A DNA stretch of 64,000 nucleotides from Polytrichum commune (lineage: Eukaryota; Streptophyta; Polytrichopsida; Polytrichales; Polytrichaceae), in the NCBI GenBank assembly GCA_950295325.1, contig OX485806.1, positions 36,950,001 through 37,014,000 of the forward strand, read 5' to 3'. The notes under the pieces are model-generated. The model had not been told where the DNA came from. It saw nothing but the letters and a program-made list of their open reading frames with translations, and made no database searches. Shown here piece after piece: positions 2,579 to 64,000 of the stretch. The translations under genes and the position numbers were made by a program. The stretch's first letter is position 1; each line of letters begins with the position of its first letter.

Positions 2579-5500
2579 ATGGCGCTGCCCGTGGCATATA
2601 GTTCATTGGAGTTGTCCACAATTTCTTCCTCCTTCAATGGTGAGTGTGAACTTTCTTCCCCTTCGGCGGGTTGTAATGGTCTGCCAAACGTGATGGGGGA
2701 GTTTGTGGATACATCCTCCCATGAATCTTTAGAAGTGCACGAACAATCTCTACATTCCAGGGATGACCACAATGACATTCCGTTGTGTGCCGGTTTCGGG
2801 AGGGAGCAATGGGTTGGCCTTGATGTCGTCCTACTCAACGACATTGGTGTCCCTGTGGCAGATGGCATATGTAGAAACTCTGATCCCCGTGATTGTGTGG
2901 ATGCCAACCCCCTTGGTCCGAACGATGTTGGTGTGTGCATCTTGAATTCATTGCTTCCGCTTGAGGTCCCGGTGACATGGAGATTTTCCTTGCGTCGATG
3001 GCCTTTTTGTCGGGTTCTCCATGACGGAGTGAGCTTGTTGGACCATGAGCGGCGCCATAAGCAAACACAATTAGCTTTGTTGGCCAAAATACGTCCTCGC
3101 AAAGGCCTACGCAAATATGATTCGAACCGTGTGCCTCGAGAAGATAAGGAGCGTCGACGGGATCGCATATTGGGAGACGAATCTATCCGTCTTGTGTCCG
3201 CCAAAGACTGTTGCTATCGGAAATGTTGCCAGTTTTTCCCACGGGAGAAAATTAAGTCCCTACGTCAAGAGATGTGGCTGGCCGATTTCCGTATGAGATC
3301 GGCAAATAAACTCGAGGTCCATAGAAATGTGCACATTGACACCCATGGGCATAAGGTGGTCACACTTGAGAATGTGGATGTGTGTTGTACCGCGTGGTAT
3401 ACCATCCATGCCGTGTCAAAGGCTGACTTTTATAGGTTTCAAAAGTATTCATCGTTGGGTCGCCGCTCACGATTTCATGGAAATTCGGGCACAAAGAAAC
3501 CTCGGGAGGCTACACTCCAAGCCTCCGCGACACTCTCCACCATCATAGTCTCATTGGCCGATGCAATGCCCCACAAGACGAGGACATTGTCGTCAGGGGA
3601 GAAAGTTGTACAAATGGTGTTGCCCACAGGTACAAAATGGAAGAACATATTAACGGACATTAACGAAGTGGGTCGCATAGCGGGATGTGGTCCCATTTCT
3701 TTGTTCAAGTTGAGTGTAATTAAAAACCAACAGTTTGCTGAATACATTTTGAAGAGACCTGGGGACAAGTTCGCTAGGTGTACGACGTGTGAAAAATACA
3801 AAGGTCTTCGAGACGCCCACCCCATAGGCACCGAATCCCACTCCAGACACCAAGCAAAATATATTGAACATGTCAACAACCAAGAGGCTCACCGTCAAGA
3901 TTACTACAAGAACCGTGCTCTATCCATAATGAGGCCTACAGAGGTTCTAACAATCATCCATGACAAAATGGACCACGCCAAGACCGCATGCCCTTGTTAT
4001 GCACGGAAAATAAAGGCCACGGATGGACTCTTCAAGTTGCCCGTAGCTGTCACAGGTTTGTAGGAAATCACAAATATGTGTTCAAATTCTATCCAATTTT
4101 ACTAGATGTGTTTGCGTTAGGTTTCAACTTCACACATCCGTTTAGGGTTGTTGTTGTTATTGTTGTCATTCATGGATCGTTTGTTTTTTCCCAGGGATGA
4201 TTGCCCACGGACATGGAGACGTTAAGTATGCCCATTATGGTCTGGATTTTTACCCTGGCGATGCTAACCACACGGTGGGATCATTTGCAAAACTCTTGCG
4301 CGATTTTGAAAAGCCACCGGTACATTCATCACGTGCATTGTTTGATGGTTGTGGAACGACACCCCTTTACGAAGCACTGCTTGCGGGGAAAGAGGTTTGT
4401 ATGTTGTCATTGCCGGAGCCACCCGGAGAACCTCTTTGTGCGAAACCTTTGCCTCCAACTCTCCACGTTCAACTTGATAATTGTGCGAAGGACAACAAAT
4501 GTCGATATGTATTTTGTTTTTGGTCCTTGCTTGTGGCGAAAGGAATCTTCAAGGAGGTGTTTGTGTCTTTCTTGATGGTGGGACACACACACGATGACAT
4601 TGATGCGTCTTTCGGACGGTGGAGCATGAAGTTGCATGAAGAAGATTTTCCAACCATACCACTTCTTATGAAATCGTATATGGATTTGGATCATATGCCG
4701 GTAATTCCGCACATGATTGAGGAAGTACCAGATTTCAAGGCCTTCATCAAGCCATACATGTTGAAGGGAGGGGACCGTTTGGTGGGACATACCAAAGCAC
4801 AACAATTCCGATTCTTTATAAGGGATGATGGTCTCCCGGCCATGCAATTTAAGCTTTTGTGCACATCTCCTAATTGGGGCCCGGATGATGGTATACTCGT
4901 ATGGCGTCAAGACAATGATGGGAAATGTTTGCTCCCGGATGGGGATCCAAAGCCTTGCAAACCCGACCCCATGAGGAATGGGCCGGAAATCATCAAAGGC
5001 ATATCCGGATTCATTGAATATTGGAAAGAGTTGTGTGAGGAGGACATCACTAGACGTGTTAGAGATACTCATGAACCTTTGATTGCGTATTGGGATCGCA
5101 TTCGCTCGGCCCTAATGACACTTGGTGGCGACACCCGTACAACTTTAACACAAGGATTTTGGCCACAAAGCCGTTTAACGGTTGTCGAGTCCGACACCAT
5201 GTTTTTTAGCAATGGAGACGTTCGTGAAGAGTTCGCAATGGACGAGCATTACGTTGGCCCTGCCCGAGATCGACCGGCACCGTCGTTTCGTGTAGGTGTT
5301 GATTGCCATGAAGGTTATTTGGTCCTCGTACGAGCAGGGGATGAGGAGCATCCCAAGCCAATTTGGTTGGTGAAAGCATTGTCTTCACCCAATTTTGTTC
5401 GAACTAGCCCCAACTTTCGTCAAATTGAGGTGGAATATTGTCGTCCAAGCACTAAAGACCAAAACGTGCTACGCACTTATTTAGGTTGGGACACCAAAAA

Positions 5501-5714
5501 GAATTTTAAGTGGACAGTGGACTCAGCGTACACACCGGTTTGGATAAACACAGATACTATACTTTGTGCTTGGAAGCCGCGCAAAGGTTCCAAAACAGAA
5601 ACAATGACCATCCCCCAAAAACATATAGATTTTGCCAAAGACAACTTGGCACGTATTGCAGCTGCGGTGAATGACGCCGAGAATGGATATGAAGCGGAAG
5701 ATGGAGATGTGTAA
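2579..5714 (+). CDS. DUF7869-type putative transposase, two exons, 998 aa
   Basis: The exons are 2579-4055 and 4195-5714; the intron starts GTTTGT and ends CCAG, and splicing keeps the frame (Thr-Gly-Met-Ile). I chose the first ATG of the long frame, at 2579; upstream exons cannot be excluded. The N-terminal 190 residues are low in conservation-like features. A Cys-rich segment (DCCYRKCC) follows. A CTTC zinc-knuckle pair is at about 401-404, then HDKMDHAK (Asp about 462/465), QLDN (Asp about 587) and GHTHDDID (about 624-629). These last three motifs are typical of the DUF7869 family found in plant and animal repeats; reading them as a DDE/RNase-H-like triad is my inference. The protein would act in the nucleus on the element's own ends. 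The frame is intact. Compared with the inverted copy at 62.5 kb it carries about 7 extra residues near 5404-5424, which look like a short tandem duplication. Confidence 0.8.
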
Positions 5715-13600: not shown

Positions 13601-15040
13601 TCTACTCACATATGCGTCATCATATAAGTTGCTTATCGTGTAAGTTGCCTCGGCATTTTGCCTAATTTACGTGCCCAAGTCCAAGTTAGGGTCACTTCTA
13701 ACCCATCTAGAGGTAGCTAACCCTTATTAAATGTATGTGGTGACTTACCAATGTCTTTAGCCCTAAAACATTGTGGTTGAACAATATTTGTTGGTTTAAT
13801 TCATACTTGAAGGTTTCAAAGATTTGATTTTTCTAATCTCAAAACATCATGTGGATGTGATAGACCCCATATATTGCCCTTGGGTGCAATTTTGATGCAC
13901 TGAGGACTTTCATCTCACCATTGAAGTCAACGGCATTTTGAATCCACGATAGTCGACATTTCTTTTCTATCATGGTTGATTAACATCTTCATTAAAAACA
14001 AAAATGATTCTCATATATAATTAGGCTCATGTGCATAAAATTAGAACACATGCACGTGAGAATTTGAATGCCCAAATTTCGAGTGCATATCCCTCTTCTA
14101 GGAGTGGTCAAAGTTCATTGACCTATTGATAGACATCACTCATATTGAAATTATTGAACATCTTTTAGTGTCATCCCTAGTTATCGCATGTTGTTATTGA
14201 TTTGCAATAAGATAATGTACTTTCTTGAAATGGAACACAAGTATTCACATCTCCATAAGCCACTTAGGAAGAGTAATTAACATGCTAAAGATATCATAGG
14301 TTCACCGCATGAGGTTTAATGGTAATTGTACTAAATAACAAACATGATGTATAAAGGTATTAGGACTTTACATCATGGAATTGGTGGAGCTGACATAATT
14401 GGGATGAAACATTTCAAAAACTTGGGTCCAATGCAATTTCTGGATGGATGTCATTCATCCAACATGAAAGATCAACATATGTGTCTATACATGGGCATAT
14501 ACTATCATAAGAGATTGAGTCATCGTGTTTCTAATTCAAGTTCTCTAGATTGCAATCCCATTACATACATAGGTCTTATGATCTATGAATGTCATCTAGT
14601 TTGAACAAAAGGGCCTAAGGTATGTGGACATTATGTGAATACTTCTAATCAGACCCTTATTTTATATTGGTTTATGGCAAGGCTTGTAGTTATGAATGGA
14701 CACCCAAAAAGACACATGTTACAATGAGAGTAAAATATGTGCTCAAATATGTTCATTACATAGGTTCAAGAGTTGACATAATTTAGAGGGCCTTTATAAT
14801 CACTTGAAGAGGACAAGAATCTCCACTTTAATTAACCTCTTATAATATTTGCATCCCAAACTCCAAAACTTAATTAAATTAACTTTATGTTTGTTAGACA
14901 TAATTATGACAATACCTAATGCAAACCAATGGCCAAAATTGCACGTGGAGTTAGAAGTCTGTACAAAAGGACCACATAGAGAGAAGAAACGCTGACCCCT
15001 GGTAGGATTAGCATGATTGAAATGCCCGTTCGACCCACCC
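13600..15040. other. Intergenic DNA without a recognisable gene
   Basis: AT-rich sequence with only short, unsupported frames. Its right end abuts the presumed 3' end of the non-LTR retrotransposon copy. I could not find a target-site duplication for that element here. Confidence 0.5.
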
Positions 15041-15041
15041 T

Positions 15042-15070
15042 TGATATTATGTCCACTGGACATAATATCA
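15042..15070. repeat. Near-perfect 29-bp hairpin in the LINE 3' UTR
   Basis: Arms of 14 bp (TGATATTATGTCCA and its complement) surround a single base. The hairpin lies about 200 nt after the stop codon. The other copy of the family has a hairpin of different sequence at the corresponding place (35287-35305), directly before its T-rich tail. A structured 3' end is often what LINE proteins recognise on their own RNA. Confidence 0.7.
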
Positions 15071-15268
15071 GTGGTGCAAGAGTACTAACCCCTCTCGGGG
15101 TGGGCACTATAGAGAATGGGGTGACCAAGTTGGCCATGTGTTAGTGCGGTTGTAGTGCTTGTAGGGGGCAAAGGTTATAACTTTGTAGGGTGGATGTTGA
15201 GTTATGGGCCTTTCATTAGTTTATTGTGATATCTTTTATTTATTGGTTGGCGAGTGTTTTGGGTGATC

Positions 15269-15850
15269 TTATGGTATTCGTGTGTCGAGTGGTATTGGCT
15301 CGTTATTTTCTATCCTTCTTTTGTGCAGAATTATGGACATAGCATATTGTATAGCGATGACATTAATTGCCTCAAATGTGTTCTTGATGCTCTGCTTAGG
15401 GATTTTAAATGTTGTTTCAATGTTTTCCATAGAGGGGATATGTGTGGCAACCCTAGCGCCTGCAGTGATGACAATTAGTGGGTCTATCTTCCAACCTTTG
15501 TTGACAATATTGTCTATTAATGGCTTATATTTTTCTATTTTACGGTTTATAGTTTCATCCGGTATTCTGTCGTTACAGTATGTAAATTCAATGAATTGTA
15601 TTGTTAGGTTGTCATTAGGTTCTATTGGGGGTGGGGACCAATATGGTAGACCTTTCACACATAAAATATCTGGTTTGAATTTGGCATTACAATGGCATCT
15701 TTGTTGGCCACATACACACGGTAGTATCCATGAAGGGACCGTGTTTTCTGGGGGGTCATTATTGAATGTTCCTGCATTCACGAGAATATAACATCTTGAC
15801 TTTTTTGATGACACTATAAGTTTCTTAATTCCCATATTGCTTTGTTGTGT
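15269..15850 (-). pseudogene. LINE polyprotein C terminus: PD-(D/E)XK restriction-like endonuclease
   Basis: After the frameshift the protein continues CVCGQQRCHC, then KPDIL, then IQFIEFTYCND, then KYKPLI and a VITAG block. This order (Cys/His motif, RHN, KPD, strand with an acidic residue, K..KY) is that of the R2-type endonuclease that nicks target DNA for target-primed reverse transcription. The PD and the Glu are intact in this copy; Thr occupies the usual Lys position, though the downstream K..KY lysine could substitute. An RNase H plus R2-type endonuclease combination recalls Dualen/RandI elements. Confidence 0.7.
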
Positions 15851-16398
15851 CTTTTGGTACGGAGGGCATGAATGTGGTGTTGTTTGCATTTTAGAAGTAC
15901 ATGCAGCCATGTATCCGGGTCTGTTGAGTCACATATGGGGCATGTAATTGATGGAAAAGCTTCTCTTCCGAAGAACAACTGTTTCCTGGCATTTCCCATG
16001 TATTGTCCGTGTCTCAGCTTTAGAAGACATGTTTTTTGGGAGTCAGTTATGTTTTTGTTTGTCCATAATTTATTTGATAGCTCATTATCTATTTTATCGT
16101 TGGCTATCCATTTATCTATGTTGGGGTATAATAGAGGGATCAATTCTAAATTTATATTCTTATTGTACTTCACTAGATGTTTTTCTAGGAATCTAATGGG
16201 TCCTTTGTCTGGGGTTGTTCCCATTGACGGCCATGTGTCTCTTTGGTAGTAGTACGGCGTTGAGTGGGCAAATTCGTGTGGTTGAGAGGCATTGTAGTGT
16301 TCTTTTGATGTCCCTTCTTTAGCAAGTGTGTCTGCTTCTTCGTTACCTTTGATGTTTGCATGTGCTCTTACTTTGTATAATGTTGTGGGTTGGGTTCT
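15814..16398 (-). pseudogene. LINE polyprotein piece: end of RNase H and zinc motif
   Basis: This continues the frame after the nonsense codon at about 16400. The stretch 16225-16398 encodes HANIKGNEEADTLAKEG, the C-terminal RNase H motif. Further on come LLKLRHGQYMGNARK and a zinc motif CPIC...HVLLKC...HH. This is followed by a RTKRHN block that in R2-type elements precedes the endonuclease. The frame ends at a frameshift near 15815-15850. Confidence 0.8.
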
Positions 16399-17508
16399 CT
16401 ATGTAAGAAGGTTCACCATTTCTTCTAAGATAGTTTTATCGGGGTGGTTATTATGTAGTGTGGGGTGTTTTATTTGGTTTTTGATTACATATAGGCCGTT
16501 AAGGCAGTCTGTGAAAATGTGTGCTGGTTCATTTGGGAAGTCATTTATTATTTTAAGGGTATGGTGAATGGCCATTAGTTCTGCTCGAAATATGTTTTGT
16601 AGGCCTGGTAGTCGTAGTGCTAGTTTGATATTTTTTTCTTGGTTATATATACCATATCCAGCTTCTTCTCTTCGCCAAATGTCTCCTATTTTTTTGGGGG
16701 GGTTAAAGGATCCGTCTGTGTAGAAGCAATATTTGGATGGGAATTTGAGTGGTGTTTCATTTTCATAGTTGGGAATTTGTGGGATTGTATTATGTAAGTG
16801 TGTGCATGGGGTTGGGTAGGTGAGGGTATTCCATGTTTTACATTTGTTGACTTCTAGATTTTGTGGGGTAGGGGGGGCAATTTGGGTGATTGTGCGAGAT
16901 ATGTTCAGGTTGTTACATATATTTCTTATTGTGTTCATTTGTTCTATATTACCGATACTATGATTTTGGTGATGGACGCATAGGATTCTTATGGTGAGTG
17001 GTTCTATACGTGGCTCATTGGATTTTTGTGGTCTTGTAGGTTCTTCATATTTGGTGGTGTCTGCTGGTATTTGAGTGATTACATGTGTGTCTAGGAAGGG
17101 ACCTAAATGTGGTTTAAAGTTCTGGTACCAATTCGGGTCTGGAATGATAAGTATGGTGGTGGTATATGGATCTTGTTTTGCTGCTAGTCTAGCCCAATGG
17201 ATTGTTTTTTGGGCTTCAATTTCATTGTGTGGGTGGGCGTATCCTATTCCTTGCCACTTGTGTGAGAATGCGTTACCTATGGACCCGAAGATTTTATCTC
17301 TAGGAAATGGTGAAAAGAATTTTGTTAGATGGGTTGAGCATGTGACTGGGGATGAGAAATAAGAGTGTGTGATTTCGAAGGATGTTGTAATGTAGTCTAA
17401 TAGTGCTTTGGGCAAGGAATGGTGTGCGTTTTTTAGTGGGTCATTTTTCGGTATTCTGTGTTTGTATCTTTGATATAGCCAAGTTATTTCGATTTCAAAG
17501 GACCACAT
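16399..17508 (-). pseudogene. LINE polyprotein piece: PCIF1-like methyltransferase region and RNase H
   Basis: The frame has 369 codons. RNase H residues are visible: YTDGS (Asp265), FRAEL (Glu310) and FTDCLNG (Asp334); the last motif (NEEAD) lies just beyond a nonsense codon at about 16400. Residues about 43-165 contain FSSPVTC, FGSIG, AHPHNE and ILIIPDPNWY. Their order and spacing resemble the PCIF1-type adenine methyltransferase (a 'SP..C', then 'FGS.G', then NPPF, then 'FIPEW'). If so, the catalytic NPPF is replaced by HPHN, so activity is doubtful. RNase H removes RNA from RNA-DNA hybrids during element copying. RNase H assignment is firm; the methyltransferase link is inference. Confidence 0.75.
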
Positions 17509-17515
17509 ACTTCAT

Positions 17516-23815: not shown

Positions 23816-26800
23816 TCACCTAACTTTGGGCCTCTTATTAGGCAAGCCCCGTTTTGCGTCCCTTGGATCAGGCATCCGACTCTTTCCAGCAACCTTAGCT
23901 TTCCTTCTTTGCCGTTCATCCTCACTGTCATCTTCATCCCCCTTCTCTTTGTCTTCTCTTTTGGCTGCTTCTTCCAACTGATCCCAAGTCAGACCTTCTT
24001 CTTCATCTTCATCCTCATCCTCCTATACCCAAAAAAAATTTAAAAAATTAGTCATTGATCAAATGGGAGTCCCATTGAAAGAGGAGTAAGCTATGGAATG
24101 AAAAGACAGGTCCTGAGCCCATATACAGATGAAACTTCCAAGAAACAAGAAAAAACCTTACCTCATCATCCTCAGATTCCACAACCGATTCATCATCGGA
24201 GTCATCGTCCTCTGATTCAGAAACAACTTCTACATCTGATGGTTCATAGCCTTCATCCGATTCTTCTGACTTCTCAGAGTCAGAATCGCTGGCCTCCATA
24301 TTCAGGAACTCCCAACCACCATCCTCAATGAACTTCTCAGGATCCTGTCCAATGAGCATACAGTTATTACATTGTGTTCAAGATTTTCAGCAATTGAGTT
24401 AGCAATTCAGCTGTCAAAGTACACCCCTTTGAGGATGCCTGGAGAAAGAGAAGACAGGGTAAACACAGAACTAGAGATTCAATCAGGTTAAGCTACTAAC
24501 CTCAAGAATAGTCTTCAATATTGGTCGCCAGTTCAGATTCATCCTGCTCTCATAGTACTTGATGTTCATAGAGTTCAGCCATTCTTTAATTCCATCAAGT
24601 GAAGTAGAAGGGATGGCATCAATTCGTAGCACATCCCGTTTGAAATCCTTGAAAACAATCGCCATATCAAATGCCTTTTGGCCTAACCCAACTCTTTCCA
24701 GGTTCACAATCTCAATGTCATTCAAACTCACAACCAAAAATGGCGTCTCTACCAGTTCCACAAGACAGTTGACAGTTGGCACAATAAAAGCAGATGATTT
24801 GTTGGGCACTCCATGGAATCCTAGCTCTCTAAAAGGAATATCAAATTCCAAATCTAGCTCTCGCCATGGTGGTTGGTCCCATAGTTCTGCCATTCTCTTC
24901 ACAAATGCTTCAAACTCCTTGTTGATTTTGTTTCGCCTATCCCTCTCTTGTTGCTCTTCCTCAATTTCATCTGGGTCCATCATCGACCTCCTATTGCCGC
25001 CAAGAGTTTGTACCACTTCCATCACCTAGTTTCCAGATTTCACATCAATTTCTATCAGTACATCATTACCAGACATGACATGAAGCAATGGAAATAATAT
25101 GGCCCAAGGTGCAGTTTTCCTCTTTATCATCACCAAGGTAGAGTCCTAGCTTGTCCACCCTGCCATGCGTATTAATCCACCACTCTCCATGTCCTACAGC
25201 TCAATCATAAGAAATATAAAACAATATGTGAAAAGTTTGCAAATATACCTCAACATAAAATTGCACATCCTTTGTTTTCTTTGTTCCCACCATAATAAAA
25301 TTATGCAAGTGAAAGTGGACAAGAGTGATCATCTCCTTCTCTGCAGGTTGGAAGAAAGCATGCTTAATATTCCGATACATTATGTCTACTTTCTCTTCCT
25401 GACGCATGGTTGAGTACCGATAACCATTTGTGTGAGCCTCTAGTGTGCCACTCATTTTCCTCCCACGTCCACCAAATGCTGGCCGGATCCAGAGATCGGA
25501 TAACCTGGCAAGAAGCCACAACCCGATAAATCAGTCAAAGGTAAGAAATCCTGAGAGTGAACAAAGGAGCCCTACAAATAACAGATGGCACAGATGGGGT
25601 TAACAAAAAAGATTCTGGAACTTCTCTTCAAGTTCTGGTTAGAAGCAATGCATGTTTTTGACATGCAAGTAAAATAGAAAGTTTCACAAATTCAACTAAG
25701 CACGTGCTTGCATAAATCATATCATAGAGTCTGATAGATGCATGAAACAAACAGAAATCCTTCACATCATTTGTTGTGAATCATCCAATCTAGACTCCAT
25801 AGGTTGTCCCCAAAAAAGTCAAGAGAAAACTTGGTGTGCACAGACCTGATTGGTCTACCCTTCCCAATCTGCAACTTCTCTTGTGTGACAAGAGTGGCCC
25901 TCTCAGCTCGTTCTGACTCTCGTTGAGCAACCTGACGACGAAGGGTCTTGATAAGCTGGACAACTTGGTAAGAATGTCGTGTGTCATTTGACCTAAATGA
26001 AACTTCTTTCACATATATTGAGCGTGGAAACTTTTGAGTAGGTATATCATTAGGCCCAAACCCTGCTCCAGGGACATTGAAGATCAGCCTGATGTATGAA
26101 TGGCCACCATCTTGCTGACTTGACACACTTTTGATAGTGGCTATGTGGAAAGGCACTAACAACCCATAAATAGGCAACAGCACTGCTTCATTTTTTTGAT
26201 CTACCTGCAGAACAGTGGAAAAAATCAGGAACATTGAAAGTAGACTCTGACTTGCATGTAAGAGAGTGAGCAAATGGTTGCATCCGGATTATGCCACTCA
26301 GCTCCTATGCAGACAGTTTGCAGCTCACCTCCTCCAGACATTATCAATAAAAGGATAAAAGTGCAAAGAGAAATTTGGCAGTGTTCCTTGAGAACCAGAA
26401 AATAATGCGTTCTTGAATCATCCTAATGCAAATGTAGGAAATTCGCTACATACATGTATTTTAAGTTCTCGTGCAGGGATGTCATCCACACTCCGATATG
26501 CTGTGATGTCTCCCGTTGTCCTGTTTGGCCCCTGGCCATCACCCGATCCTAACCCACCAGAGGCTAGTCTTCTGGCTGTTTCCTCGTTCTTCTGCCTTGC
26601 TAACTCTGCTTGGTGCTGCCGACGTTGCTGTAGCAAAAGAAGGGAAAATATTTCAAATGATTGCATCTTCAACTTGACAATGGCATACAGGAAAGAAGTG
26701 AAAGGACAAGGACAAGAATTCAACATACCACAAAACAACTTTACTAATCAAATATAGTACAGAAGAAGCTCTACCTTAATAAATTCATCACTGACATGAC

Positions 26801-28954
26801 CCACAGAATAGAGCTAGAAAGTCACCTCCTCCTTGGTCATTTCTTGATTGTCTGATCGCAGAGTCGCCATACGCACAGCAGGCTCAGTAGATCCATTTGT
26901 CTCAGCTTTCACTTTAGGCTTTGGCTCTACTTTCACCTCTTCTTCCTCATCATCTTTGAAGGAGTAGGCAATGTCTGTGTAGGTTTTGGAACACCGTAGA
27001 GTGGGGACCTCAGGAGCACCTCTTTCAGTAACAAATGCCGTATCTGCTAGGAGGAGAGAGAAGGTTTTGGACTTCGGATTCTTTGAATCTGTTGTTAAAT
27101 TATGGAATCCTAGAGACACATTAAAGACCATACCAGCCTTTATGACCTTATCATTTTTTCCATTCAGAGTCAATCCTGACTCACGGAATTCGATACCAAT
27201 TCCTGTTCCTGCATTTTTTGTGAAGTAGGGCAAGAATTCTGGCGATCCAGATTCTACAACAGCAAAAGCAGCTTTGTATGGTGCTGACATAGCATTACCA
27301 GGCCTCAGGGCAGCTATAGCTGCTTCATGAGCTTTGAGGAGATTTTTGTATGCCTTTTCCTGAGTTTTATCAGCATCAATCATGATGGTTCTGGCAATAT
27401 TTGAGCAATAGGACTTAAAACGTGCACCAATAGCACATAAGATCACACCCATCGCATCAAAATACAAAGGGTCTTCATTGCTGACAGCACTTGGTTTCAG
27501 GTCGAAGACTCCTCCACTCTGAAAAACAGGAGGATAGCAGATGTCCACATCCTCGGGTTTCAATTTGACATATTTACCCGGGTTGGTGATCACTTCTTCA
27601 GTACTCTCCATAAGCTCTGCATGTGAGACCTTCTTTTCTTCATCAATAACTACTTCAAGTTTTGGAACCACAAAGCCCTTCAGCACTGCCGCACTCAAGT
27701 GGGATGCATTTCTGATGTTGGATATTTCTTCCTGTAGAAGAGAAGAGAAAAGAGCCAGTCAGAACAAAATTAAAATTATAGTAAAACACTAAACCCAGCT
27801 GCACTTGAGTGTCGGTATGCTAAATGCACTCCTTTCACTTGAGACTTCTCTTTCCACCTTACCAAAATGATGCATTCAAGGACTTGAAAACCTCACTTTG
27901 GACATCTCCAATATGATTTTACTCTGAAAAAGGGAATATTACAGTGAAAAAGTTCAGTACAGGACAACTATAACCTTCAGCCTTTCGCATAAAGATGGAA
28001 AGATTCATGTCATCAAGCAGCTAATTTGACGAAATGCACTACCGTTTACTTTCAAACCATAAACCTTAGCCAAATTATCATAACTTATAACCACTGAATA
28101 TGGGTTCAGCCTTATAGAGCATGGATGACAGCAGGTAAGGGTTTGTTATCCAGACAAAGCTCTGACGTGCACGGATGTTTGCAGAATAAAACACACAGAA
28201 ACCTTGGCCAAATTATCATGACTACGAGGCCTTGACATAAGGGTTCAGTCCTATACTGCATGGATGACCGCAGGTAAGGGTTTGTCAAACACGCAAACCT
28301 CTAATACACACGAATGTTTGCAGAACAGAACACACATTGTACACATGAGTGAAAGAACATGGATTTTGAATTTTTGACCTCATCCTTGACAGCAAATATT
28401 TCCGAGAATCCGCTTGACACGTCCACGGTGGTGGCACCGGAGCCATCCAAACACTCAGCCCACTTTTCCATAAGGGGACCCTCGGCCGCTTCCCTTGCAA
28501 GAACTCCCATAACAGGGGGCTTATTCCTGCTATGCCCTTGGACAGCCTCCAGGACAGCATTCATCTGCACACTGCCATCCTGCTTCCGCTCTTTCACATG
28601 GATATGAATGTCCACACCCGTGAGCATCTTGGAAGACTTCTGCAAGTCCTCCAAGTGTCCCGCCTTCTTCGAGCTGCACACGAAGTGCAGCGCCCCCGGC
28701 ATGAACACCATCACGGTCTCGGGGAACTCGTACCCTAGCAACCAGATGTGCAATGCCGTGGACTTCAAGTATCGCAAATCCTCGGACGCGGGTGGTGTGA
28801 CCACCGCCAGTGCGTCTGCACCTCCCCACATCTCTTTCTTGTGCTCCTTCCATTTCTGGTTCAACGCTTTCAACCGCTTGCCGTAAAGCTCAAGGTTGAT
28901 TTGCACCCCGTGGCCACCATTGCCCCCCTTGCCGTCGCCATTGCGCTCCGCCAT
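23816..28954 (-). CDS. SPT16: FACT complex large subunit SPT16, 8 coding exons, 1061 aa
   Basis: Exons on the minus strand are 28954-28379, 27731-26826, 26627-26454, 26204-25846, 25504-25249, 25025-24501, 24344-24162 and 24022-23816. All introns are GT-AG and the frame is continuous. The product is a nuclear histone chaperone which, with SSRP1, loosens and rebuilds nucleosomes during transcription and replication. Visible parts: N-lobe (about 1-175), a catalytically dead M24 peptidase-like domain (about 190-440, with SYCSNIARTI and GTGIGIEFRESGL), a charged linker (RRQHQAELARQKNEETARR), the middle PH/Rtt106-like region (SERAERATLVTQEKL, IRPAFGGRGRK, KHAFFQPAEKEMITL, NWRPILKTI) and a highly acidic tail ending in a basic KRPKVR. 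Length matches plant SPT16 (about 1050-1075 aa). ATG 28954 gives the normal N terminus. No defects seen; expected to be functional. Confidence 0.97.
28061..28336. repeat. 138-bp tandem duplication inside SPT16 intron 1
   Basis: Two direct copies (28061-28198 and 28199-about 28336) share AAACCTTAGCCAAATTATCA-like starts, 'gggttcag.cctata', 'catggatgac.gcaggtaaggg' and 'gatgtttgcagaa'. The second copy ends about 40 bp from the exon 1 donor at 28378. It does not disturb the splice sites I used. Confidence 0.75.
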
Positions 28955-34283: not shown

Positions 34284-34643
34284 AACACTCACAACCATTA
34301 GTTTATTCTATTTTATCATGTGAAGGACCCGTGTGAATAGAATTTCATTGAAATAGCATTTGGTTGAGGACCTAGTCACATGTGCCTTCACACTACACAA
34401 TCAAAACTAATATTTAATTAGAAAAAAATTGTTCATAACCAATAATGCAAATAAGATTATCATTTTGTTATTGACATATTTGCATTGTGAAACGAGTTAT
34501 TAAGGGAAAATAAACTAGAAGCATATGATAATATCTCAATCGTATGCATGTTTTGAAAAGCAATGTAATCAAAACATGATGTGGATGTGCATTTCTCACA
34601 AACAATATATGCAAGCACAACAAAAACGTGTTCACAATAAGGT

Positions 34644-35353
34644 ATGTTTTGACAATTGCACATGTGGTACACAAAGATGCCACTGTAACGCAAGATTTAG
34701 ACATTATATCCTTTGTGTTTGGGGACTACCATATCAAAACGACCCTCCCGTAGACATTGACCCTAACCTCACCATACAATTTATTGAATTCACATACTGC
34801 AATGACAGATTCTCCCCAGAAGCAGTTGAAGCAAAAAATAACAAATATAGACCACTAATTGCTAGTATCGCTTCCAGAGGATGGAAAATCGAACCACTTA
34901 TTGTCATCACTGCTGGTGCCAAAGCTACTGCTCACATCCCATCTATGAAATTACTCGAGACTAATTTCAAAATGCCTATGCCTACCATCAAAAATACATT
35001 TAAAAATATTAATACCATCGCAATACAATATGCCATGTCTATCCTCCTCCACAAAAGGAGAATAGAAAACCACCAACCGCTTCCCCTCACTCTAGACCCC
35101 CCATAACTCAAAACTTAAAAGTTACAGGTAAGGGTCACTGGGTATAATTTTAGGCGTGGTTCCGTGTTACTGGTTTCTTGTGTCTAAAGTGTCTACTCTC
35201 GAAAGGGGGGAGTAGATCTTTTCCTCCATACCCTTATCCTGTGGGCATGGGATTGGAGGTGGATCGAACATACACTTAATCCACGTCGGTCTCCTCCGGA
35301 GACCGAAGTTTATTTTTTATTTTTTTATTTTTTTATTATTATGTTTTGACAAT
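34644..35353 (+). mobile_element. 5'-truncated LINE insertion with 14-bp target-site duplication
   Basis: TATGTTTTGACAAT occurs at 34644-34657 and again at 35340-35353. Between them (34658-35339, 682 bp) lies the C-terminal endonuclease part of the same LINE family as at 15.0-17.5 kb, followed by its 3' UTR, a hairpin (35287-35305, arms CGGTCTCC/GGAGACCG) and a (T6-7 A)n tail. The frame to the stop near 35104 is open and shows IQFIEFTYCND and the VITAG block. The catalytic KPD of the other copy is replaced by RHY, so the endonuclease is inactive. Confidence 0.9.
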
Positions 35354-36869: not shown

Positions 36870-37830
36870 TTTTTCTCAGGTTTTTGTGTAATTTGTTGAA
36901 TGTTTGACGTACGATGAGGATATTAATGCATTTGGTTGAGAGCTTACATCGTTGATGCAGCCAAAATCTCCTACTCATTCTGAGTGCTAGTGGATTTAGT
37001 GGACGATGGAGAAGGCATGTGATGAATCAGATTCGAATGGGTAATTTGCGTCTGAATTTTGTAATGCTAAACACCTCGGAGAACTATTGCCTTCTCATGC
37101 TTGGTTTTGGATAGGTGACGAAAGGATTCCTTCCGAAGATGTTTGAAATAGAGATTAAGGGTTATGGTTGTACTGGTTAAATCTCGATGTAGTTTCGAAT
37201 GGGTATTCTGCGCTTGATCTTTGTTATGCTAAAACACATTGGAGAACTAGTCACTTTGCGCATAGTAAGGACAGTAAGGCCAGATGGGATTTATTTGGAA
37301 TTACCGGCTTATAGTGGCATGCCTCCTGCTGAGAATTGGCTGAATGAGGCCTCCTTTGAATCCTGGTTAGTGGTGATATACGATTACAATCAATTTTATT
37401 GCATTAAGATGTGAATTGCCCAAGATAGGAAGTGCCGTATGACACTAATCTCAAAGCTCAAGTGACTCTTCCCTGCTGCTGGACCCTGGAACATCTCCTT
37501 TGGGGATTTCGAGGAGTGTCGGGTTGATAGGCGAATCTCGTTTTGGCGGGTGATTTGACACGGGTTTCTGAGGGCTGTGTGAATATGTAGTTGTTTGGTT
37601 GTAAATGTGTAGTGATGAGACAAGAGTTCCTGATCTGGTATTTATTTCTAGTCTCAAGAAAGAACTCTTGGCTGTGTGAGCATAATGGTTTACAGGTACC
37701 GGTGTTGATTAGGAAGTGGCGCACCTTTACCAATACCAACAGTGAATTCCATACTTTGTGGTTTAATGGCGTTTGCGCAATAGTTGTCGTGGTATTACTG
37801 GTTGGTTGGGTTCTATTTGGTCTCTTCTAA
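36870..37830 (+). repeat. Segmental duplication, copy 1
   Basis: About 1 kb aligns in direct orientation with 38700-39650 (offset about 1.82 kb). Shared blocks include 'ctcctactcattctgagtgct', 'gaatgggtaatttgcg', 'gtgatgctaaacacct', 'gcccaagataggaagtgccgta', 'aaagaactcttggctgtgtgag' and 'aattccatactttgtggtttaatggcgtt'. Frames are not conserved between copies. It may be a duplicated non-coding transcript or old element. Confidence 0.75.
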
Positions 37831-38099
37831 ATCGGGAAAGCCACGGTAAATTTCAATGCGTCTTCGTGCGAGATAGTTCGATATGGATTGATCCATTTTG
37901 CCATGACCCACTTTCTCTTTTTTGACCGGTTAGTTGTAGGGGTTGTATGGCATGTGGTTTAAGGTTTGTAAATTTAACTTAATACAAACTCAATCCTTGC
38001 AACAAAGACTGCTGTTTGCCTTCCATATTTGGCCAACCTGAATCCTGCCAAAGCCGGTGACGATAAATTTATAGGCTTGTTTCTCGAACATTCGCAGTG

Positions 38100-38290
38100 G
38101 CCACCTAAAGCTTTCGCCACCCCGGGCTCGAGAGCTATGCAACTTCCAAACCTTCCTTGGATACGTGAGACTTTGGCAATAAAAGATTACATTGGAGGCT
38201 AAGATTGCGAAGTATCCGTGCTTCTGAGGGGACACCCCATGAAGTACACAAATACAATATGGTTGAATTTCTTGACATGAGCCTCATAAG
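38100..38290 (+). repeat. Dispersed repeat, also at 48066-48265
   Basis: Both copies share 'ttccaaaccttccttggata', 'cttctg.gggg', 'tgaagtacacaaatac' and 'tggttgaatttcttgacatg' followed by 'agcctcataa' in the same order and orientation. It sits between the two halves of the 37/39-kb segmental duplication. Confidence 0.7.
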
Positions 38291-38699
38291 CACAACCTAG
38301 TCGCAATAATAGGAATGGGTAGGTATTAACCTCTTCGATGATGCGCAAATTGTTATATTCCTTGGATTAAAAGTACAAATATTGTTGCTCTACTGGCAAT
38401 GAATCGCCTACTGCATTCTGATGTGATGGATATGAGCGTTTCACTATCATAAGAAGACGCCATGAAGGGTGACGCGATTTTTCACCAAAAATACGTTTTA
38501 AATTGGACCAGGATTTTTGACCAAATCGGCCTCATCAACATAATCACCAGAGCCCAGTGTCGAGCGCAGACAATTTAGTTTCATGCTCATTTCTATAGAA
38601 CAATTGGAGTCAAACTTTCAAAAGAGGTGAATGTATAGACACATTCTCTGGTGCATTCTTATACTTTTGTGGTTTAGTAGGATGCCTATAGGATTTATT

Positions 38700-39650
38700 C
38701 TAGATTTTCGTTTATTTGTTGGATGTCTGGTGCACAATGAGGATATCACTGTATTTAGTTGAGAGCTCGCTCGTTGGTGCACCCAAACCTCCTACTCATT
38801 CTGAGTGCTGCGGTTGTGGTGAGTAGATGGACAAGGCGTGTGATGAAACAGTTTTGAATGGGTAATTTGCGCCTGGTTTCTGTGATGCTAAACACCTTGG
38901 AGGATTTATGCCTTCTCATACTTAGATTTAGGATAAAAGGCAAATGGGTTCTAATTATAAGATCTTTGACGCGATGGTCTCAGGGCTTAATTTCGTGTGC
39001 TTGTTGATTTTCGAAACAGTTTCGAAGGGGTAATATGGGCCTGATTTCTGTCATGCCTGGAGAACTGATGTCACTTCATGGATTTGGCAAGATAGGTCAG
39101 TGAGGATTATTTAGAATTACCGGCTTATGGCATCATACCGCATGCCGAGGACTGGCTGATTGAGGCCTCCTTCGAATCCTGGTTAATGGTGAAATATAAT
39201 CACAACACTCCTAAGATGTGAATCGCCCAAGATAGGAAGTGCCGTATGACACTAATTAATGTCGAAGCTCGAACATCTCCTTGGAGGATTTGCAGGAGGA
39301 CTCCCAGGGTGATAGATGAATCGGATTGTGGTGGATGATTTGACAAAGGTTTCTGAGGGCTGTGTGAATATGTATTTGTTTGGTTATAAATATGCAGTGA
39401 CGATACAAAAGTGCTCCGGATTAGAGTTTCTGATCTGGTTTTTATTTCCAGTCTCAGGAAAGAACTCTTGGCTGTGTGAGCATAATGATTTACAGGTACC
39501 GATGTTGATTTGGTAGTGGCGCACTTCACCAATACCAAGAGTGAATTCCATACTTTGTGGTTTAATGGCGTTTGTGCAATAGCTGTCGTGGTATAACTGG
39601 TTGGTTGGTTTCTTTTTGGTCTCTTCTAAGCCGGGAAAGCCACGGGATAA
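38700..39650 (+). repeat. Segmental duplication, copy 2
   Basis: Partner of 36870-37830 (blocks listed there). This copy lacks some internal segments and has several small deletions. Just beyond it, at 39880-39920, is a pentanucleotide (TTTCA/TTTCG)n microsatellite. Confidence 0.75.
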
Positions 39651-54950: not shown

Positions 54951-55462
54951 ACACATGTAACACAAGTGGTCCTTGATCTTAGAGAAGAGTTTTCCTCCTT
55001 CTTCCCCCCCCCCCTATATATTACCAATAAAAATTCAGTGTTATATATCTATTGTCACACATTGACATACCGTACCTTAGGGGCAGCTTCGGCAACTCGT
55101 GGTCGAATAATTAATTAATTTCAAATTTTAATGTCCGGCAGAAAAAAAAAGTAATATTTAAGAATTCGACTTTTTGAAAAAATAAATAACTATAGGTTCG
55201 ACTTTCATCCACAGTTCATGGCGTTTCATTCCTTGTTTGCTACTTCATTATGATGTTTTGAAAGTGGCAGCCGACCTTTACCTTAACTTAACCTAGATGT
55301 TCACTTAAGTTTGCTTAACTAACCCTAATCTCAATGTTTACCATGGGGGCCTGTTTGTGCAAATTCTAGTTTGTCAAGGGACTTGTGAGAAGTTTGCAAC
55401 ATTGCTTTGATTCTTGTAAGTGCTTATAAGGTTAAGTGTCTTGCCAATGAGTGATTGAGAGT

Positions 55463-57280
55463 ATGGGTAAACAACAAGTTTTGAGCAATATGTTCACAGT
55501 CATAGACAAAGAGGAAATGGAAGATAGGGTTGAGCATGACTTTGCTCAGCTACATGTGAAGATGGAGTTGGAGAAATCAATCAAGAAAGAAGTTCAAAAA
55601 CGTCCAGTGGGGAGGCCTAAGAGGGAGATTGAAGCTGTACTTGTTCCAATCAAAGAGGAGAAATGTGACACAACACCAAAGAGGAAAAAAACTAGAGGAC
55701 CGTACAAGAACTGGTTTGTACCATCTCTCTGGGATCCTATCTATGCAGCTGTAACACATCATAGAAGTATTGGTCATGCTTTGAAGTATTTGCAAACGAA
55801 ATACAAGTTGCCTGGACAAACCAAGAGTGTTTATGATGATTTAACTAGAGGTTCCATGAGAGAATGGTTCACTAAGACAGGGGAACTAAAAGATGGTACA
55901 AAACAAGCAATCTTCAAAGAAACAGCAGCTTACACAGGTGGAATTCAACATGCTTATGTTCTTTCTAGCCATCGTGAATTGGAGGAAGAGATAATCACCT
56001 TGTTGAAGGCACATCGTGAAGCAGGTCAACCTCTTTTTGCTTCTACTGTGAGGAACTTAATTCGAACCCTCATTCAAAAGAGAGAGCCCAACCTTCTCAA
56101 TTTTGAAAGTCCAAGTGGATTTAGGGTTTCTTTAGAGTGGACACGAGATTTTGTGAGAACGAATTTGAATTGGAGCTTTAGGAAAGGAACAGGAGCAGCT
56201 AGAAAACTACCGAAAGATTGGGAGCATCAGGGTTTGCAAATGGCACAACGGACAGCCTACCTTGTCAAAGCCCATTCCATTGCACCAGAACTGGTCATAA
56301 ACACTGACCAAACAGGGATACATCTGGTACCAGCGGGAGGTGCACGCACTTGGGTAGAGAAAGGGTCCAAACATGTACAAATCTTAGGTATGGAAGACAA
56401 AAAACAAATTACAGTTTCAGTGTCTTCTTCAGCTGCAGGAAACTTGTTACCTTTTCAACTTGTCTTTACAGGGACTACAGATAGATCTCTCCCACCTCGA
56501 AATGAAGGTCGCCAAATGTGTGAAGATGCTGGTTGGCATTTAACATATAGCAGCAATCATTGGAGCAACTTGACCACTTGCAAGCAATTTGTTGAACGAA
56601 TTTTACAACCTTATAGAAGAAAACAAGTGCAAGAGATGGGATTGGATGAAGAAACAAAGTTGATATGGCTGCTGGACTGTTGGAGTGTTCATATTTCTAA
56701 GGACTTCATTTGTTGGTTGAAGATATCACATCCACAGATTCTACTTATCTTTGTCCCTGCAAATTGCACCAGCGTTTTTCAGCCAGCAGATGTGATTTTA
56801 CAGCGCCCATTCAAGCATGGTTTCAGACAACAGTTTGACAATTACATTTCTGAAAATATTGGCAAACATATTGATGAGAAGGAATTACAAGATGTAGAGT
56901 TAAATACAAAAATGTCAGTGCTTAAGCCTTTGCTGTGCAGTTGGTTGTATCAAGCATGGCAACATATCAACAAAAAAGACATGATTAAACGAGGATGGAG
57001 CATGTGTGGCTTAGATCAAGCATTTGAATCATCATTTCAGACATCTGCTATGGAGGAACACATGAAGAGTTCATTGTTCAACGAAGTACAAGGTGCAGAA
57101 GAAATTTGCAAGGAAAAGGATGACGAAACAGATCCAGACGAAAGTATTGAAGCCATAATGGAGAAGAATCTATCTCTTGTTGTTGCTACAAGGGAAAACA
57201 AAAGATCTGTAGTGACAACCATGAAAGATCGAGCTAGAAAAAGGTATGTTCATTCCAAACAAGTTCAAAGAAAAAGTTGA
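55463..57280 (+). CDS. pogo-like DDD transposase, 605 aa
   Basis: It would cut the element out and join it to a TA target in nuclear DNA. I chose the ATG at 55463. Visible features: an AT-hook-like basic stretch RPVGRPKR (about 47-54) and KKTRGPYKNW; helical DNA-binding regions (about 85-215, including EEEIITLLKAHREAGQPL); then the DDE_1-type catalytic core. The core has NTDQTGIHLVP (Asp282), LLDCWSVH (Asp405) and VPANCTSVFQPADV (Asp443), with 37 residues between the last two aspartates. All three acidic residues are present. The C terminus is acidic then basic. No intron is needed. A decayed homologue lies at 60.2-61.3 kb. Confidence 0.9.
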   Translation: MGKQQVLSNMFTVIDKEEMEDRVEHDFAQLHVKMELEKSIKKEVQKRPVGRPKREIEAVLVPIKEEKCDTTPKRKKTRGPYKNWFVPSLWDPIYAAVTHHRSIGHALKYLQTKYKLPGQTKSVYDDLTRGSMREWFTKTGELKDGTKQAIFKETAAYTGGIQHAYVLSSHRELEEEIITLLKAHREAGQPLFASTVRNLIRTLIQKREPNLLNFESPSGFRVSLEWTRDFVRTNLNWSFRKGTGAARKLPKDWEHQGLQMAQRTAYLVKAHSIAPELVINTDQTGIHLVPAGGARTWVEKGSKHVQILGMEDKKQITVSVSSSAAGNLLPFQLVFTGTTDRSLPPRNEGRQMCEDAGWHLTYSSNHWSNLTTCKQFVERILQPYRRKQVQEMGLDEETKLIWLLDCWSVHISKDFICWLKISHPQILLIFVPANCTSVFQPADVILQRPFKHGFRQQFDNYISENIGKHIDEKELQDVELNTKMSVLKPLLCSWLYQAWQHINKKDMIKRGWSMCGLDQAFESSFQTSAMEEHMKSSLFNEVQGAEEICKEKDDETDPDESIEAIMEKNLSLVVATRENKRSVVTTMKDRARKRYVHSKQVQRKS

Positions 57281-62057: not shown

Positions 62058-64000
62058 AACACTATATTCGTTAATCGGAGACTTTGGAAAGTCTCAAAAT
62101 AAAATATGCGCATAGTTTGGGATGCCAATATTGTGAGCATACGGAACATTGGGAACATAATGAACATGATGGTTTACAAAATCGCACGTGAAGAATATTC
62201 AACTTACTAATAATAGTAAGGTCTTGAATTATAATGAAAACATGAATTACATGTGGAAAATAACAATTGAATCTAAAAAAATGGTTTTATGTCATTATAA
62301 AGTTTAGGGTGTGCATCCCATACATAAGGTCTTATGGAATTGGATGGCACATCCCAAACGTATGTCACAATTGAATGTAACAACTCTACTAAGTCTATTA
62401 AAAACAAAGTTTACTAAGTGCCCATGCTTTTCCCCATTCATTCCCACCTATATTATGTTTCTCCATCTCCATCTTCCGCTTCATATCCATTCTCGGCATC
62501 ATTTTCCACAGTTGCAATACGTGCCAAGTTGTCTTTGGCAAAATCTATATGTTTCTGGGGGATGGTCATTGTTTCTGATTTGGAACCCTTGCGCGGCTTC
62601 CAAGCACAAAGTATGGTATCCGTGTTTATCCAAACCGGTCCGTACGCTGAGTCCACTATCCACTTGAAATTCTTTTTCGTGTCCCAACCTAAATAGGTGC
62701 AAAGCACGTTATGGTCTTTGGTGCTTGGACGGCAATATTCCACCTCAATTCGAACAAAATTGGGTGAAGACAATGCTTTCACCAACCAAATTGGCTTGGG
62801 ATGCTCCTCATCCCCTGCTCGTACGAGGACCATATAACCTTCGTGGCAATCAACACCTACACAAAACGACGGGGCCGGCCGATTGCGCGCAGGGCCAACA
62901 TAATGCTCGTCCATTGCGAACTCTTCACGGATGTCTCCATTGCTGAAAAACATTGTTTCAGACTCGACAACCGTCAAACGACTCTGTGGCCAAAATCCTT
63001 GTGTCAAAGTTGTACGGGTGTCGCCACCAAGTGTCATCAAGGCCGTTCGAATGCAATCCCAATACGCGATCAACGGTTCATGGGTATCTCTAACACGTCT
63101 GGTGATGTCCTCCTCGCACAACTCTTTCCAATACTCAATGAATCCGGATATGCCTTTGATGATTTCTGGCCCATTCCTCATGGGGTCGAGTTTGCAAGGC
63201 ATTGGTTCGCCATCCGGGAGCAAGCATTTCCCATCCTTGTCTTGACGCCATACGAGTATACCATCATCCGGGCCCCAATTAGCAGATGTGCACAAAAACT
63301 TGAATTGCATGGCCGGGACACCATCATCCCTCATATAGAATTGGAATTGTTGTGCTTTGGTATGTCCCACCAAACGGTCCCCTCCCTTCAACATGTATGG
63401 CTTGATGAAGGCCTTGAAATTTGGTACTTCCTCAATCATGTGCGGGATCACCGGCATATGGTCTAAATCCATATATGATTTTATAAGAAGTGGTATGGTC
63501 GGAAAATCTTCCTCATGCAACTTCATGCTCCAACGCCCAAATGACGCATCAATGTCGTCGTGTGTGTGTCCCACCATCAAGAAAGACACAAACACCTCTT
63601 TGAAGATTCCTTTTGCCACGAACAATGACCAAAAACAAAATACGTATCGACATTTGTTGTCCTTCGCACAATTATCAAGTTGAACGTGGAGAGTTGGAGG
63701 CAATGGTTTAGCACAAATGGGTTCTGCGGGTGGTTCTGGCAATGACAACATACAAACCTCCTTCCCCGCAAACACTGCCTCATAAAGGGGTGTCGTTCCA
63801 CAACCATCAAAAAGTGCACGCGAAAAATGTACTGGCGGCTTTTCAAGATCGCGCAAGAATTTTACAAATGAACCCACCGTGTGGTTTGTATCGCCAGGGT
63901 AAAAATCCAAACCATAATGGGCATACTTAACGTCCACATGGCCATGGGCAATCATACCTAGAAAAAACAAACGATGCGTGAACAACAAAAATGAAATAAC
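62058..64000 (-). mobile_element. Right DUF7869 element, inverted, runs off the window
   Basis: Reverse-strand copy of the element at the left end of the window. The 3' limit of similarity is 62058 and the conserved 3' hairpin is at 62078-62095 (same arms as in the left copy, loop GG). Only exon 2, the 3' part of the intron and the 3' UTR are inside the window. The palindrome array, if present, lies beyond 64000. Confidence 0.85.
62453..63957 (-). CDS. DUF7869-type putative transposase, exon 2 (partial gene)
   Basis: The exon starts after a TTTTTTCTAG acceptor at 63957 and is open to a stop at 62453. It encodes QLDN and GHTHDDID motifs identical to the left copy. It lacks the 7-residue insertion of the left copy and ends with a slightly different C terminus (DGDGET rather than DGDV). 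Most differences are single substitutions and the frame is intact, consistent with a recently active family. Exon 1 is outside the window. Confidence 0.85.

Follow-up and report, generated by a model that had tools for sequence, protein, structure and literature searches.

The 64,000-nucleotide window analysed here (Polytrichum commune, assembly GCA_950295325.1, contig OX485806.1, positions 36,950,001 to 37,014,000) contains, at 14979-17496 on the minus strand, a single 5'-truncated and decayed copy of a long interspersed nuclear element (LINE). Members of this large LINE family carry an extra domain that, by sequence comparison, is homologous to the CAPAM/PCIF1 N6-adenosine methyltransferase and that has lost the catalytic motif of this enzyme. 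With moderate confidence, we favour the view that an old captured CAPAM-type fold now serves as a pseudo-methyltransferase platform between the reverse transcriptase (RT) and RNase H.

The initial annotation, made from the letters of the window alone, had proposed a PCIF1-like methyltransferase region, and profile searches bear this out. The window copy matches the Pfam family PCIF1_WW (PF12237) over residues 4-91 of its frame, with an expectation value (E) of 1.9e-9 and 37.8 bits against a cut-off of 31.1. This family represents a CAPAM-like methyltransferase and not a WW domain (excerpts of PMC7641849), and the long frames, scanned against Pfam at E up to 1, match no WW family. Relatives were sought in the host genome (408 Mb, 64 contigs), and every relative described here comes from that one genome. 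One of its contigs, C8, contains rbcL with a frame after it that we read as accD, which is consistent with a land plant, as are snoZ101 and snoU36a in the window. There, PF12237 is matched over its cut-off by all 150 genome matches scored, out of 697 candidates. The domain alignment was built from 64 loci, of which 20 were excluded for stops or short segments. Removal of those more than 95% identical to a kept row reduced the remaining 44 to 30, and the window copy was added to these. All 31 members match PF12237 at E up to 10, the best at 8.2e-13.

Against 177,635 PDB sequences at E up to 10, a profile of the domain has only two matches, and both are PCIF1: the zebrafish protein (E 0.0038, stretch 26-81) and the human protein (E 0.013, stretch 28-107). 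When the profile is aligned with these two chains by hhalign, the P value is 2.6e-7 over profile columns 29-166, and the score is 50.2 versus a mean of 14.5 and a maximum of 28.65 for 150 column permutations (half single-column shuffles, half five-column blocks). The motif order SPxxC, FGSxG, tetrad position and strand with Trp, which had been proposed from the window copy, is held across the family both by hhalign and in the multiple alignments. Sixteen columns are identical across six LINE copies and both vertebrate PCIF1 chains, and among 65 aligned rows SSPxTC or SSPxSC is kept in 64 and FGSxG in 56. The LINE domain resembles PCIF1/CAPAM in having, in the same order, SPxxC, FGSxG, a GxxxAxP segment and, past the following strand, a Trp, but differs from it in lacking NPPF, in residing within a retroelement polyprotein and in giving no WW match.

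There is no NPPF (D/N-P-P-F/Y/W motif IV) in any of the 65 aligned rows or in 12 further loci, which make up the 77 copies read; the tetrad that was first noticed as a degenerate NPPF in the window copy is replaced in all of them. The 65 rows are counted without L001 and L003 (the window and L024 copies), L019 (located inside L021) and L017 (split between frames). The tetrad at this position is HPHN in 36 rows and HPHT in 15, followed by HSHN, HPNN, HPPN, HPYN and HPHS (two each) and HPRN, HLHN, YPHN and HPHP (one each). The 12 further loci exhibit HPHN, HPHT, HPPN, HPQN, HPKD and FPTD, and the tetrad of L078 is HPHT. The first position is His in 64 of the 65 rows and the second is Pro in 62, whereas the third (H, P, N, Y, R, Q, K, T) and the fourth (N, T, S, P, D) are variable, and L086 has Phe at the first. 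Genome-wide, DNA with the potential to encode GYAHP occurs 529 times versus 35 in a reversed control, and DNA with the potential to encode GYANP 57 times versus 47. The absence of NPPF extends to a lineage, represented by L085 and L086, that is 57-63% identical to the other copies in RT. Provided that the 6irv chain begins at residue 165, as is suggested by a crystal fragment spanning 165-668 (excerpts of PMC7948815), the residues of PCIF1 that align here are N553 and F556. Mutation of N553 or F556 is described as lowering PCIF1 activity (excerpts of PMC11550742), as is disruption of the NPPF motif (excerpts of PMC6318281).

Among eight relatives, which form 28 pairs, the ratio of nonsynonymous to synonymous substitution rates (dN/dS) is 0.08-0.28 for the domain (23 pairs computable), 0.05-0.27 for RNase H (21 pairs) and 0.22-1.07 for the linker between them (27 pairs). 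The value for the domain is below that for the linker in all 22 pairs having both. This comparison shows that the PCIF1-like domain is under purifying selection, with the caveat that most of the pairs are saturated. L085 and L086 are 39-44% identical to the other copies in the PCIF1-like domain, and L086 is 42-45% identical in RNase H, 40-43% in the endonuclease and 17-22% in the linker, where L085 reaches 15-19%. Because both lineages keep it, the domain has persisted for as long as RNase H and the endonuclease have. Its presence in two lineages that are so far apart in RT indicates that it was most likely captured before they split.

The copy in the window had initially been placed at 15041-17515. 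Its frames and motifs are found where they had been read, and its motif content stands, but its limits are corrected to 14979-17496 by a perfect 13-bp target-site duplication, AAAGGACCACATA, that brackets it at 14966-14978 and 17497-17509. Homology to sister copies stops at approximately 17499, which is the end reached against L024. The frame 16399-17511 on the minus strand, with its stop at 16399-16401, contains FSSPVTC, FGSIG, AHPHNE, ILIIPDPNWY and the initial part of RNase H. Beyond the stop, the unchanged frame extends over 15814-16398, where the remainder of RNase H is followed by CPIC..HVLLKC and RTKRHN, and a frameshift leads into the frame 15269-15928 (the two frames overlap at 15814-15928), which contains KPDIL and IQFIEFTYCND. 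This copy is dead, wherein the stop breaks RNase H and the frameshift sets the endonuclease apart. Among the matches listed, its nearest relatives are L002-L009 and L014, which share 91-95% identity with it over the protein stretch used in the search. The features are as follows.

14966..14978, no strand: target-site duplication, copy 1, an exact 13-bp match to 17497-17509.
14979..15268, minus strand: 3' untranslated region ending in ..GGGGTCAGCGTTTCTTCTCTC, without poly(A); this end is common to L006, L017 and L024, which run on past it into variable TCTC runs.
15269..15928, minus strand: predicted R2-like restriction-like endonuclease region in the shifted frame, from the motifs KPDIL and IQFIEFTYCND, found also in aligned relatives.
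15814..16398, minus strand: end of RNase H (RNase_H fragment of 19.9 bits, below the cut-off of 25.8) and the CPIC..HVLLKC / RTKRHN zinc region.
16399..16401, minus strand: in-frame stop codon within RNase H, from reading of the frame.
16402..16734, minus strand: first part of RNase H, from frame residue 260 up to the stop (Pfam RNase_H, residues 260-361, 28.7 bits), in agreement with the RNase H initially read there.
16855..17502, minus strand: PCIF1/CAPAM-like methyltransferase-type domain, approximately residues 4-219 of the frame, from PF12237, the PDB profile search and hhalign.
17224..17235, minus strand: HPHN, frame residues 93-96, placed opposite the catalytic tetrad NPPF of PCIF1 (N553-F556 in the human protein), from hhalign and the multiple alignment.
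17275..17289, minus strand: FGSIG (FGSRG in PCIF1), residues 75-79 of the frame.
17497..17509, no strand: target-site duplication, copy 2, at the 5'-truncated end, from the 13-bp match.
34657..35106, plus strand: a second, shorter copy, the endonuclease end of an L021-type element, with 85.1% DNA identity to L021 over 450 bp and an open frame at 34519-35106.

Longer members of the family reveal the complete arrangement. In the genome, 111 of 2,929 candidates were scored and listed, and their open frames reach 2,924 codons. The order in the long relatives is a 2A-like motif, an apurinic/apyrimidinic-type endonuclease (APE), RT, the PCIF1-like domain, RNase H, CCHC and the R2-like endonuclease, and the PCIF1-like domain is located between RT and RNase H in the long copies that were read. 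Of the two features that the initial annotation had sought in longer members, RT is kept, together with APE and the 2A-like motif, and NPPF is kept in none of the 77 copies. In L021, for example, NPGP is located at amino acid 282, RT at 1122-1387, the PCIF1-like domain at 1871-1966 and RNase H at 2139-2279, followed by CPIC at 2402, RPDIL at 2491 and IEFTYC at 2519. Over 9,126 bp, L021 has 99.0% identity to L022, each of the two has 2,625 open codons, and this near-identity with both frames open suggests that the family has recently been mobile. The frame upstream in L021 is coiled-coil-like by eye and has no Pfam match over cut-off.

For APE, the Pfam family Exo_endo_phos_2 is over its cut-off in L024 (28.6 versus 27.4 bits) and in L086 (32.3 bits), Exo_endo_phos in L085 is slightly below its own (23.7 versus 24.5 bits), and for L021 the Pfam scan at E up to 1 lists no APE family. 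RNase_H scores 50.0-55.9 bits in L021, L024, L085 and L086. The RT of L086 matches R2 in the PDB at 6.4e-39, versus 2.7e-21 at best for LINE-1 ORF2 and 9e-22 for 8c8j, which is named only as an RNA-directed DNA polymerase. The R2-type endonuclease that had been read in the window is retained in this assignment: the CCHC, RHN, PD and EFTYC motifs are kept in six of six aligned rows, and the only two PDB sequences found by this alignment are ones that we take to be R2 proteins, with a weak E of 1.4. There is no endonuclease family among the Pfam matches of this region.

A chromodomain-like stretch follows RT and precedes the PCIF1-like domain, at L086:4768-5067 and at the equivalent place in other copies. 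Its YLCQW core is invariant in the 12 rows used of 17 aligned. Pfam Chromo is matched by five of these 12 members at E up to 10, and the best of these matches, at 0.0015, scores below the cut-off of the family. There are eight matches to this stretch in the PDB, wherein four are CDYL2 (E 0.45-0.83) and the best is a proteasome subunit (0.12).

A predicted 2A/StopGo-like motif, D(V/I)ExNPGP, is located ahead of the APE region in L021, L024, L069 and L085, which share it with the 2A/StopGo motifs of elements that lack long terminal repeats (non-LTR elements), whereas L023 (DIKPNPGP) and L086 (DIHPNPGP) deviate at the Glu. A degenerate DNA pattern for G-D-(V/I)-E-x-N-P-G-P has 256 matches versus none for the reversed control, although this is a genome-wide count and not each match was checked for location in such an element. 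StopGo is described as almost absent from plant viruses (excerpts of PMC12846837). By eye, L085 carries two copies of the 2A-like motif within one frame, with a similar segment after each.

The window copy is a dead, 5'-truncated member of a Dualen/RandI-like LINE. We propose that this LINE most likely captured its PCIF1-like domain, and that the methyltransferase fold is retained and used without catalysis. Because the PCIF1 signature is largely kept but the catalytic motif is lost, the extra domain is probably a binding or scaffolding part and not an enzyme. PCIF1 uses this fold to handle RNA at its 5' end; in the LINE, the fold would form a platform that handles nucleic acids and lies between RT and RNase H. 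As target-primed reverse transcription proceeds, such a platform would keep the RNA:DNA hybrid or the template RNA in position, by analogy with METTL14, a catalytically degenerate partner with a methyltransferase fold that helps bind RNA. Two uses had been suggested in the initial annotation, and the structural one is favoured. The other, a methyltransferase acting on the RNA of the element, is disfavoured by the loss of NPPF and by the near-control frequency of GYANP, versus GYAHP far above control.

Several observations weigh against this proposal. The methyltransferase fold is structurally unconfirmed, and a single-sequence AlphaFold model of residues 1-241 of the frame in the window copy has a mean predicted local distance difference test score of only 34.8. 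The window sequence alone finds only zebrafish PCIF1 in the PDB, at E 0.46. Several significant matches end at or before the tetrad (the Pfam match 4-91 stops two residues before HPHN, and the zebrafish match covers 26-81), so the tetrad is placed by hhalign and the multiple alignments, together with the match to the human chain (28-107) and Pfam matches of greater length, such as that of L024 (240-364). By eye, the alignment becomes loose beyond the Trp in NWY. L085 and L086 alone score 23.6 against PCIF1, which is inside the permutation range, and their PF12237 matches (26.1 and 27.4 bits) are below 31.1. The homology of that lineage is consequently based on its similarity to the main lineage.

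Similar cautions apply to the constraint. Most dS values exceed 1, and the dN/dS of the domain is higher than that of RNase H in 11 of the 17 pairs having both values and lower in six. Two pairs are unsaturated: L021/L023 (domain 0.13, RNase H 0.05, linker 0.30) and L073/L071 (domain 0.17, RNase H 0.09, linker 0.22). In these, the constraint on the domain is approximately half as tight as that on RNase H. Constraint also acts on the stretch from RT to the domain (dN/dS 0.08-0.44) and is thus not special to the PCIF1-like domain. In addition, the assignment of the putative endonuclease draws on motifs and the PDB match at E 1.4, and the role as an RNA-binding platform is one that we infer.

One other possibility, which we consider unlikely, is that the domain is purely a structural spacer or protein-interaction domain that sets the distance between RT and RNase H without contacting nucleic acid or cofactor, comparable to the connection domains of retroviral RTs. 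Consistent with this, the long copies read have the domain in the same place, flanked by RT and RNase H, and its constraint is no stronger than that on RNase H. However, the columns invariant in both lineages are not evenly spread and include parts of the PCIF1 signature (SSP..C, FG..G, W.G.G...P), which argues weakly for something other than a spacer.

It is quite improbable that the domain is an active methyltransferase with an altered motif IV, wherein His-Pro replaces Asn-Pro and the RNA or complementary DNA of the element, or a protein, is methylated by a different chemistry. The strong conservation of the His and Pro of the tetrad in the main lineage, together with that of FGSxG and SSPxTC or SSPxSC, would fit such an enzyme, and cytosine methyltransferases were reportedly found in retrotransposons by de Mendoza in 2018. 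The methyltransferase domain of DIRS1 is likewise a precedent for such domains in retroelements (excerpts of PMC3266345). However, the equivalents of N553 and F556, whose mutation lowers PCIF1 activity, are both replaced, the third and fourth tetrad positions vary, and even the His gives way to Phe in L086.

There is a slim chance that the domain is a cap reader, a non-methylating fold that still recognizes the capped 5' end of the RNA of the element. In PCIF1, the cap is described as being read through arginines of the helical domain and a glutamate (excerpts of PMC7948815 and PMC11550742). If true, the LINE would sense a full-length template and couple the second cut, for which its second endonuclease is responsible, to completion of the first strand. 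Finally, a chance or convergent likeness to PCIF1 without common descent, which might be read from the weak single-sequence PDB match and the missing catalytic residues, is scarcely credible given that every scored genome match passes the Pfam cut-off, that PCIF1 is the sole PDB match by profile and that no permutation approaches the observed score.

The layout of the element would be that of a Dualen/RandI-like LINE plus one extra domain. Dualen/RandI elements, known here by published descriptions, combine APE and an R2-like endonuclease in one polyprotein (excerpts of PMC4640811 and PMC3636483) that also includes RNase H (PMC4640811), and they are found in Chlamydomonas and its relatives (excerpts of PMC8226300). 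The moss LINE would differ by adding the PCIF1-like domain before RNase H, the 2A-like motif and the weak chromodomain-like stretch. It is similar to R2 in that the RT of L086 is nearest to R2 in the PDB and in the CCHC-RHN-PD order, but has APE, RNase H and the PCIF1-like domain, none of which is present in R2 to our knowledge. DIRS1-like elements also have a methyltransferase-type domain alongside RT and RNase H, but they are tyrosine-recombinase elements with another domain order. Their methyltransferase domain is of the Dam type, and the LINE domain matches no Dam family in Pfam. The function of the DIRS1-like RT-RNase H-methyltransferase series was described as unknown at the time of that paper (excerpts of PMC3266345).

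By titles and the openings of abstracts, none of the open-licence papers listed describes a PCIF1-like domain in a LINE, and no paper combining 'non-LTR retrotransposon', 'PCIF1' and 'methyltransferase' was among them, which does not prove that none has been published. Scans with the domain profile yielded 22 and 20 pattern stretches in viral contigs and 28 in a genome-contig collection, and a scan of viral contigs with the human PCIF1 segment yielded seven; none was confirmed as a relative. Since these collections are viral or prokaryotic, absence from them says little. In the host genome, the human segment has 107 weak matches at E up to 10 (best 28.1 bits). Ten of these places were fetched and all ten matched the LINE-domain profile; no intact cellular PCIF1 gene was seen among them, although an intron-split gene could escape this search.

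Elsewhere in the window, a 609-codon frame at 55451-57280 (plus strand) has a DDE_1 transposase-type match of 41.8 bits, and a 522-codon frame at 4146-5714 (plus strand) matches DUF7869 with 136.6 bits, with a similar stretch by eye near 62768-63466. SPT16-like exons (Peptidase_M24, PH_SPT16 and Rttp106-like middle domains) are located at 24486-27758 (minus strand), and a box C/D snoRNA group with two copies of snoZ101 and one of snoU36a at 37010-38916 (plus strand).

The PCIF1-like domain sits in an element with two endonucleases, in which the coordination of the two cuts is of interest. The domain adds a methyltransferase-type module to those known in retroelements, such as the DIRS1 methyltransferase and captured cytosine methyltransferases. 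PCIF1/CAPAM has been studied as a cap-adenosine methyltransferase, and a retroelement that carries its fold minus the catalytic motif, in a domain that is under constraint, would constitute a natural experiment on the non-methylation roles of this fold.

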